From: Flavobacteriaceae bacterium
GTDB taxonomy: Bacteria; Bacteroidota; Bacteroidia; Flavobacteriales; Flavobacteriaceae
Reading direction: 5' to 3'
NCBI GenBank assembly: GCA_002719315.1
Contig: PBHD01000012.1
Coordinates: forward strand, 326,623 to 366,390
Length of the DNA: 39,768 bases
Shown: positions 21,955 through 24,369 of the stretch, piece by piece
How positions within the stretch are numbered: position 1 is the first letter of the stretch
Layout of the letters: each line of letters opens with the position of its first letter
Position numbers and translations under genes: made by a program
The notes under the pieces: generated by a model
The model's input: only the letters and a program-made list of their open reading frames with translations
Told to the model about the DNA's origin: nothing
Databases searched by the model: none

Positions 21955-23226
21955 ATGGATATTCTTGAATTAACTACAATTCTCCTTTCTTTAGCATCGG
22001 TATTTTCAATTATTAATTTAAGATTGCTCAAATTACCACAGACTATTGGTCTAATGATCCTTGCGCTTATTCTTTCAATACTTGTAACAGCTGTAGGAAT
22101 TGTCTTTCCCAATGTTTTCGAAACTGTTGCTCAATTAACAAAAGAATTTGACTTTAGCTTAGTATTGATTAATGTAATGTTACCTTTCCTTTTATTTGCT
22201 GGAGCAATTAGTATTAATCTTCAAGATCTTCTTGAAGATAAATTAACTATTCTCCTTTTAGCAACTTTTGGAGTCTTTTTTTCAACTTTTGTAGTCGGAA
22301 GTGGTTTGTTCTGGCTTGTTCAACAACCTGTTTTTGAATTAAATCAAATTGGTTTAACTTTTGTAGACTGCTTATTATTCGGAGCCTTAATTGCTCCAAC
22401 AGACCCTATAGCTGTATTAGCTCTTCTCAAGAATATGAACCTTTCATCTAAAACCAAAACTGTAATTGCTGGTGAATCCTTATTTAATGATGGTATTGGT
22501 GTGGTTATATTTTTAACTCTATTAAATGTAAAGCTTGAAGGATATGAAAATATTACTGCAATGAGTGTTGGAACATTATTTGTTACTGAAGTTTTAGGTG
22601 GTCTTATTTTGGGTGCTTTTTTTGGATACTTTGGTCTAAAATTGCTTAAATATATAGAAAATGAATTTGTTGAGCTTGAGGTTTTAATAACACTATCTTT
22701 AGTATTAGTTGTCTCTCTAATTGCTTTTAAATTTCATCTTTCAGGTCCAATAGGTGTGGTTATTTTAGGTTTATTTCTTAATCAAAATGTTGACTCAGAT
22801 CGAGAAAAAGAAGGACTTCAAAAAGCGATGGGTGATTATGTATACAAATTTTGGCATCTTTTAGATGAAACTTTAAATGCTATACTATTTATTTTAATTG
22901 GTTTAGAAATAATTTTAATATTTGAATCATTTGATGTTTCATATTTATTCATCTCAATTTTGATTATATTAATTTGTGTTTTATCCAGATTTATTGGTGT
23001 AAAACTCCCAATTTTACTTCTTTCGATTAAAAAATCCTTTGAAAAAAATACTGCCTTAATAATTACTTGGGGTGGTTTAAGAGGTGGATTAAGTGTAGCT
23101 TTAGCTTTAAATTTGCCCGATTCAATTGGAGAAGGTAAATCCTTGATTCTATTTTTGACTTATGCAGTCGTTCTATTTACAATTTTAGGTCAAGGTTTAA
23201 CAATAAAAAAGCTTATTAAAGAGTAG
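21955..23226 (+). CDS. CPA1-family Na+/H+ antiporter
   Basis: Multi-TM; PFLLFAGAISI, GALIAPTDPIAVLALLK, GESLFNDGIGVVIF, WGGLRGGLSVALAL. Confidence 0.94.
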   Translation: MDILELTTILLSLASVFSIINLRLLKLPQTIGLMILALILSILVTAVGIVFPNVFETVAQLTKEFDFSLVLINVMLPFLLFAGAISINLQDLLEDKLTILLLATFGVFFSTFVVGSGLFWLVQQPVFELNQIGLTFVDCLLFGALIAPTDPIAVLALLKNMNLSSKTKTVIAGESLFNDGIGVVIFLTLLNVKLEGYENITAMSVGTLFVTEVLGGLILGAFFGYFGLKLLKYIENEFVELEVLITLSLVLVVSLIAFKFHLSGPIGVVILGLFLNQNVDSDREKEGLQKAMGDYVYKFWHLLDETLNAILFILIGLEIILIFESFDVSYLFISILIILICVLSRFIGVKLPILLLSIKKSFEKNTALIITWGGLRGGLSVALALNLPDSIGEGKSLILFLTYAVVLFTILGQGLTIKKLIKE

Positions 23227-23316
23227 AAATAATAAAACATTTTTTAAATTTACTTATTGAGTAGTTAGGTCTGTGACAACAGATAATGTTTAACTAATAT
23301 AGAGAGGAGGTGTCTT

Positions 23317-23379
23317 ATGTTTTATAAAATTTATTTAAGGAATTATAAACTAAAGAGACCAATGAGTTCTCTTTTGTAA
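23317..23379 (+). CDS. Possible 20-aa leader peptide or microprotein (MFYKIYLRNYKLKRPMSSLL)
   Basis: ATG 23317, TAA 23377-23379; AGGAGGTG at 23305-23312, 4 nt before the ATG. Confidence 0.5.
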   Translation: MFYKIYLRNYKLKRPMSSLL

Positions 23380-23400
23380 ATCCTTATCTATTAAAAGAAA

Positions 23401-23424
23401 AGCGAGTCGATGGGCTCGCTTTTT
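23401..23424 (+). terminator. Rho-independent-terminator-like hairpin
   Basis: AGCGAGTC-GATG-GGCTCGCT (8-bp stem with one T.G) followed by TTTT. Confidence 0.8.
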
Positions 23425-23436
23425 AATTAAAAAATC

Positions 23437-24369
23437 ATGATAAAAGTTCCAAAGGTAAACCTTCAAAATTTCATATCAGGATCTAAAAAAGAAAAAAACA
23501 AATTCATCAAAGATATAGGCTTAGCATTTGAAAAAATTGGATTTGTTTCTCTAAAAGGGCACTTTTTAAGTAAAAGTTTAATGAATAAGCTTTATACTGA
23601 AGTTAATTCATTTTTCAAATTACCACTTGAAATAAAATTAAAGTACGAAATTAAAGGACTAAATGGTCAAAGAGGTTATACTGCATTTGGAAAAGAACAT
23701 GCTAAAGGAAGAAAAGTTGGAGATTTAAAAGAATTTTGGCATTTTGGTCAAGAAGTAAATAAAAAATATCCTCCTAATATTAAAGTTCATGAAATTCCTA
23801 TGTTTAATAAAACTGGAATGATTTCTTATAAAATGCTTGAAAAAACAGGAAGAGAGATTCTAAGAGCATTAGCGATTTATTTAAATTTAGATGAATTTTA
23901 TTTTGATAAATATATTCTAAATGGAAATTCTATTTTAAGGGCTATACACTATCCTCCAATAAAAAATAAGCCTAAAAATGCCGAAAGAGCAGCTGCTCAT
24001 GGGGATATTAATCTAATAACTTTACTTATGGGAGCTCAAGGAAAAGGCCTTCAACTAAAAGCTAATGATGGTTCTTGGATAGATGCAATTGCAGATAATG
24101 ATGACTTAATGATCAATATTGGTGATATGTTATCTAGATTAACAAATAACAAATTAAAATCAACTATCCATCGTGTTATAAATCCTCCAAAAACAATGTG
24201 GGATAAATCAAGATTTTCAATCCCTTTCTTTATGCACCCTATTAATGAAATGCCTCTTAATTGTCTAAAATCTTGTATAAATGAGAAAAATCCTAAATCC
24301 TACGACGATATTAGTGCTGGAGAGTTTCTAAATGAGAGATTAGTAGAGATTGGTTTAATCAAAAGTTAA
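23437..24369 (+). CDS. 2-oxoglutarate-Fe(II) dioxygenase, isopenicillin N synthase-like family
   Basis: GQRGYTAFGKEHAKG, LRAIHYPPI, AAHGDINLITLL (HxD), GDMLSRLTNNKLKSTIHRVINP (distal His), RFSIPFFMHP. Confidence 0.93.
   Translation: MIKVPKVNLQNFISGSKKEKNKFIKDIGLAFEKIGFVSLKGHFLSKSLMNKLYTEVNSFFKLPLEIKLKYEIKGLNGQRGYTAFGKEHAKGRKVGDLKEFWHFGQEVNKKYPPNIKVHEIPMFNKTGMISYKMLEKTGREILRALAIYLNLDEFYFDKYILNGNSILRAIHYPPIKNKPKNAERAAAHGDINLITLLMGAQGKGLQLKANDGSWIDAIADNDDLMINIGDMLSRLTNNKLKSTIHRVINPPKTMWDKSRFSIPFFMHPINEMPLNCLKSCINEKNPKSYDDISAGEFLNERLVEIGLIKS

Follow-up and report, generated by a model that had tools for sequence, protein, structure and literature searches.

Between a Na+/H+ antiporter gene and a dioxygenase gene in the genome of a Flavobacteriaceae bacterium lies a conserved small gene of ~165 nt that was previously undescribed and unannotated. 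On balance, we favor the reading that this element is an independent, single-copy small mRNA, as opposed to an attenuator of the dioxygenase gene, and that its partly closed Shine-Dalgarno (SD) sequence is recognized preferentially by ribosomes whose anti-SD is exposed. The window, by which we mean the whole stretch of 39,768 nt that was analyzed, derives from a 2.1-Mb assembly (G000; 28% GC, 17 contigs, 89% complete, 6.9% contamination), and a same-genus relative (G001) was compared with it. The element and its flanking genes comprise the following features.

21955..23226, + strand: CPA1 Na+/H+ antiporter gene, upstream context (PF00999, E 3.2e-55); adjoins the element in 16/16 carriers
23245..23252, + strand: promoter -7 element TAAATTTA (consensus in Bacteroidota: TAnnTTTG); distance to the ORF ATG 72 nt
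23259..23425, + strand: predicted ~165-nt transcript, matched by the covariance model; ends placed from the promoter and terminator positions
23269..23284, + strand: 5' hairpin NTCTGT-GACA-ACAGAN; two of its pairs show two-sided compensatory changes, in 8 and 7 sequences
23301..23313, + strand: extended SD AGAGAGGAGGTGT; anti-SD pairing -20.0 kcal/mol, GGAGG to ATG 6 nt
23309-23316 with 23353-23360, + strand: possible helix GGTGTCTT/AAGAGACC; 80% of cells paired, low thermodynamic probability
23317..23379, + strand: 20-codon ORF MFYKIYLRNYKLKRPMSSLL, then stop; open, with 19-21 codons, in 16/16 homologs
23319-23322 with 23347-23350, + strand: possible helix GTTT/AAAC; 97% of cells paired, low thermodynamic probability
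23381..23390, + strand: anti-SD-like motif TCCTTATCTA after the stop, complementary to TAGA.AAGGA of the SD
23398..23423, + strand: intrinsic terminator hairpin AAAAGCGAGTC-GATG-GGCTCGCTTTT; compensatory changes, 98.7% paired
23437..24369, + strand: 2OG-Fe(II) dioxygenase gene (DIOX_N/2OG-FeII_Oxy; PF14226, PF03171), downstream context outside the element; next gene in 8/16 carriers

The gene unit emerges from comparison of genomes. When 400 Flavobacteriaceae genomes were scanned for a long SD ahead of an ATG, the matches comprised rpsU, scattered sites and a recurring short ORF (AGAAAGGAGGTGTCTTATGTCTTATGA...). A covariance model built on nine sequences, the window and eight relatives from that scan, then identified 16 carriers among the 400 genomes, with a single copy in every carrier (E 2.5e-10 to 2e-38) and a match spanning all 170 positions. 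Five weaker matches near 1e-4 (G091, G165, G215, G228, G346) resembled unrelated loci, terminators for the most part, and were left out of the carrier set. The sample is accordingly one of 16 sequences from one family, mostly draft genomes, and the carrier genomes are mostly 1.7-2.2 Mb in size. An order-wide search of 228 genomes with the covariance model recovered the window alone, apart from an 82-nt match regarded as fortuitous, 199 genomes of relatives of carrier G163 yielded zero further carriers, and viral contigs gave no matches to the SD-start pattern. A direct DNA search with the intergenic region against 60 relatives found G001 alone, the others being AT-rich chance matches. In Rfam, the window has no match at gathering score, its weak matches lying far below gathering scores, and none of eight homologous loci matches at E<=0.1.

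Additional evidence comes from the comparison with G001, which shows a single difference over the 166 sites of the element, whereas divergence is 4.0% elsewhere in intergenic DNA (P 0.010) and 6.0% at third codon positions (P 0.0005). The sole difference, G23269A, preserves a pair of the 5' hairpin by converting G.U to A-U. In folding, too, the element region surpasses shuffled versions of itself (z -3.55), and across the 16 homologs it qualifies, by compensatory changes above controls, as a conserved structured RNA. In the structure as a whole, 92.1% of cells are paired. The covariation score of 0.272 exceeds that of shuffles (0.157; 0/500) and of slid partners (0.149 or less), and the 37 two-sided cells exceed the 11.9 of shuffles (0/500); the signal is strongest in the 5' hairpin and the terminator. 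Both hairpins had been recognized in the preliminary description of this DNA, the first as TCTGT-GACA-ACAGA at 23270-23283, which is indeed present, its core almost invariant and two of its outer pairs covarying, and the second as a terminator-like stem ahead of the dioxygenase ATG at 23437. The latter carries compensatory changes in single pairs in up to 6 and 5 sequences, and its predicted probability of forming is at least 0.91 in 15/16 homologs. Two further pairings proposed at that time fared less well. A hairpin over the ORF end (AAAGAGA, 23352-23358, with TCTCTTT, 23368-23374) exists in the sequence but falls outside the conserved structure, and the complementarity of GGTGTCTT at the SD to AAGAGACC is real but shows no two-sided compensatory changes across the 16 homologs. 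In the GTTT/AAAC helix, U-A replaces C-G in 4 sequences. Upstream of these structures, TAnnTTT(G/A) is found 67-72 nt before the ATG in 15/16 homologs; in the window copy, A replaces the final G.

The most distinctive feature of the element is its SD. In the Flavobacteriales, the anti-SD is sequestered in a pocket formed by bS21/bS18/bS6 and becomes exposed in ribosomes without bS21 (PMC9976891); flavobacterial ribosomes normally ignore SDs and read well only an exceptionally long one, best when bS21 is missing (PMC9976891). Because the anti-SD is hidden unless bS21 is missing, extended SDs have been reported for rpsU, which encodes bS21, only (McNutt et al. 2023, PMC9976891), and rpsU is autoregulated via bS21-lacking ribosomes (PMC9976891), its preferential translation by anti-SD-exposed ribosomes having been established experimentally in F. 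johnsoniae. McNutt et al. concluded that SD-dependent control in the order is limited to rpsU (PMC9976891); their scan covered annotated genes of complete genomes (PMC9976891) and for that reason would overlook, in uncultured lineages, an ORF of 20 codons. In the window's genome, no site on either strand of the 375-kb contig complements the anti-SD more strongly than AGAGAGGAGGTGT, the next best intergenic site reaching -14.0 kcal/mol, and AGRRRGGAGGTG occurs a single time in the whole genome, at the element. SDs in general show no enrichment there, AGGAGGT-N3-9-ATG occurring 44 times vs 37 in a reversed control. With a flavobacterial 16S tail the window SD pairs at -22.2 kcal/mol; most carriers show about -22 kcal/mol, and the worst, a decayed copy in G297, -15.1. 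The SD of the element lies within the bounds of the rpsU type (stronger than -13 kcal/mol, 9-13 bp) as calculated with the anti-SD tail of relatives, which was borrowed because the 16S 3' end was not found in G000 or G001. A separate, orphan AGAGAGGAGGTGT was observed in non-coding DNA at locus L266 around position 2846 (G004:C90:238852), in the loop of a GATTTAG/CTAAATC hairpin and without a start codon after it.

The status of rpsU differs among the carriers. In the eight tested outside the window's genus (G351, G163, G161, G324, G349, G376, G203, G274), an extended SD precedes rpsU as well (-17.6 to -21.7 kcal/mol), and these genomes therefore hold two extended-SD genes. The SD of the element equals or exceeds that of rpsU in the same genomes; its GGAGG is separated from the ATG by 6 nt, that of the carrier rpsU genes measured by 9 nt. 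The SD of rpsU has been lost in the window's genus (-4.6; G000:C2:94903-95061 and G001:C1:22970-23128, loci L285 and L195), where the small ORF carries the only extended-SD site found and bS21 has His54 in place of Tyr54. Mutation of Tyr54 to Ala in F. johnsoniae bS21 leads to more use of strong SDs. The loss of the rpsU SD together with His54 suggests that bS21 control may be altered in this genus. The window assembly also contains a second rpsU (G000:C6:40354-40512, L197) with Tyr54 and without an SD, which may be contamination, estimated for this assembly at 6.9%.

The post-stop motif TCCTTATCTA is identical in 12/16 homologs and lies shortly past the stop where intact. Its helix with the SD has 90% of cells paired and one compensatory change, G-C to U-A (G306/G090). 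Thermodynamically the helix is likely in 8-9/16 sequences and weak in the window, G001, G349 and G274, and the four copies that have diverged most are predicted to lack it. It is also missing from the RNAalifold model computed on all 16 sequences. Given this omission and the uneven thermodynamic prediction, we regard the helix as moderately supported by the sequence comparison.

From these features we envision that a TAnnTTTG-type promoter would give rise to an RNA of ~165 nt bearing the 5' hairpin, the extended SD, an ORF of 19-21 codons and the intrinsic terminator. Since flavobacterial ribosomes hide the anti-SD and read only long SDs, the ORF is most likely translated preferentially by anti-SD-exposed ribosomes; by analogy with rpsU in F. 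johnsoniae, these would presumably be ribosomes deficient in bS21. On the idle RNA, the TCCTTATCTA motif would close the SD, as the modeled helix suggests, and a terminating ribosome would cover the motif and could thereby keep the SD open.

What such translation would yield is a question on which the ORF itself is informative. The 20-codon frame at 23317-23379 had been described correctly, and its maintenance in relatives, put forward earlier as a check along with that of the stems, was borne out in 16 homologs, with covariation above controls and 19-21 codons throughout. The frame is kept open beyond chance, to judge from its sequence evolution: indels are multiples of three, and when neutral evolution was simulated on the element's own tree, all 16 copies kept 19-21 codons in 0/20000 runs, or in 5 of 20000 with branch lengths halved. 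The companion check, on selection, gave a divided answer, as the open frame is retained but pN/pS is about 1.3 (codons 2-9). The encoded peptides (M[SF]Y...LR...Q..P-like) are polar and basic by inspection. Similarity to rpsU stops at the SD stretch and peptide scores are at background, which dismisses an rpsU remnant; the ORF does not encode bS21.

A microprotein gene, in which the basic peptide of 19-21 residues is the active product, would account for the maintained ORF, the indels in multiples of three and the fact that frame 0, with a mild substitution bias, scores above the other frames. However, substitutions in the ORF show no third-position excess, the pN/pS ratio speaks for a weakly constrained peptide sequence, and five peptides tried against Pfam and NCBIfam gave zero matches; we therefore consider this explanation rather unlikely, if still deserving of attention. 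The weak constraint means that translation may matter more than its product, and on sequence grounds it favors translation or ribosome capture as the output over a sequence-specific peptide.

Capture could in principle be the whole function. A non-coding decoy RNA would capture anti-SD-exposed 30S subunits, or compete for them with rpsU mRNA, and the ORF would merely cycle the captured ribosomes. The SD is longer than needed, ORF length is kept while the peptide is weakly constrained, and rpsU has a competable extended SD in all eight carriers tested outside the window's genus. Retention of the element in the window's genus, where rpsU has no SD, counts against this explanation, which we judge unlikely. 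More doubtful still is a regulator or 3'-UTR part of the antiporter gene. The antiporter precedes the element in every carrier at a near-constant distance (stop to ORF ATG 90-95 nt in 14 carriers and 110-111 nt in 2), but the element has its own promoter element, and the synteny may be inherited within one clade.

The preliminary description had inclined to a translation-coupled attenuator, in which translation of the leader decides terminator formation and thereby transcription of the dioxygenase gene. In the window, the terminator stem ends 13 nt before the dioxygenase ATG and the gap shows no promoter consensus; likewise, in the window and in G001, G349, G161 and G351, the stem ends 13-22 nt before that ATG with no clear promoter between, and terminator read-through into the dioxygenase gene is possible in the window. 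Across the carriers, however, the dioxygenase is the next gene in only eight (G000, G001, G324, G349, G161, G351, G163, G021). In the other eight, the next gene is convergent in five, namely a beta-lactamase-like gene in G203 and G376, ETF alpha in G077 and G297, and an ORF of no assigned identity in G210, and codirectional in three, a glycosyltransferase gene in G274 and an ABA4-like gene in G306 and G090 (one of each like pair was Pfam-scanned and its partner read by eye). A dioxygenase search of G077 and G090 at E 1e-60 gave none. Moreover, the dioxygenases of 80 relatives have no leader ORF or strong SD upstream and mostly show their own TAnnTTTG promoter. Since the downstream gene varies or is convergent and the relatives' dioxygenases do without such a leader, the element is not there for the dioxygenase's sake. 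The earlier remark that no clear antiterminator is present also stands, no competing pairing having been found among the 16 homologs. The terminator stem begins 16-26 nt past the stop codon in most copies, those measured reliably, and with no competitor at hand translation should not relieve termination; nor do the 16 peptides have a common codon run or a regulatory amino acid run. The attenuator is therefore very improbable, and what survives is the fallback that the same description had mentioned, an independent small RNA or microprotein gene, as indicated by an own promoter element, ORF and terminator and a varying downstream gene. Leader-like architecture in one genome can thus mislead until the downstream neighbors are compared. 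Finally, a functionless chance combination of terminator and spacer, for which one could cite the decaying copy in G297 (L303, G297:C2:36788-36945; SD reduced to GGAAG, the 5' hairpin, promoter and terminator degraded, the ORF still open) and near relatives without the element (G123, G610), is barely credible, as sixteen homologs with covariation and ORF retention already contradict it.

Several known systems share parts of this design. With rpsU mRNA the element has in common an extended SD pairing with the anti-SD at about -20 kcal/mol or below, a TAnnTTTG promoter close upstream and a monocistronic organization; unlike rpsU, it encodes a 19-21-residue peptide unrelated to bS21 and possesses a 5' hairpin, an SD-complementary motif past the stop and a position after the antiporter gene. 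Peptide-leader attenuators of the trp type likewise have a short ORF and then a terminator upstream of a gene, but the element has no regulatory codon run and no antiterminator, and its downstream gene is variable or convergent. Type I toxin mRNAs such as hok are small mRNAs whose SD is closed by a 3' segment and which encode a hydrophobic membrane peptide countered by an antisense RNA antitoxin. The element resembles these in its short ORF, own promoter and terminator and an SD complementary to a downstream segment; its peptides, in contrast, are polar and basic and not hydrophobic. Dual-function small RNAs that encode peptides are also a known kind, and the element is like them in being a small RNA that has its own terminator and a short ORF, its own defining feature being the extended SD.

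Building on the favored reading of an independent small mRNA, we tentatively raise a broader possibility, one for which we claim limited confidence: the element may be a second target of bS21-deficient specialized ribosomes, acting as a dedicated sensor or decoy for the loss or exchange of bS21, whether through incomplete 30S assembly or through phages with their own bS21, by means of translating a 20-codon ORF whose sequence matters little and of competing for anti-SDs that are exposed. With a conserved gene whose SD is just as strong, bS21-free ribosomes would have another client, and the element would offer a convenient reporter with which to probe the role of such ribosomes.

Some observations concern the neighboring genes. 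In the window, a riboflavin synthase gene (Lum_binding, by Pfam) also neighbors the element. The dioxygenase gene that follows the element in G021 (G021:C31:12116-13051) contains one in-frame TAA. In many Flavobacteriaceae with larger genomes (L036, L037, L039 and similar loci), a codirectional ORF with an MDLQDQL start seems to follow the dioxygenase gene, and by eye it resembles a SUI1/YciH-type translation factor.
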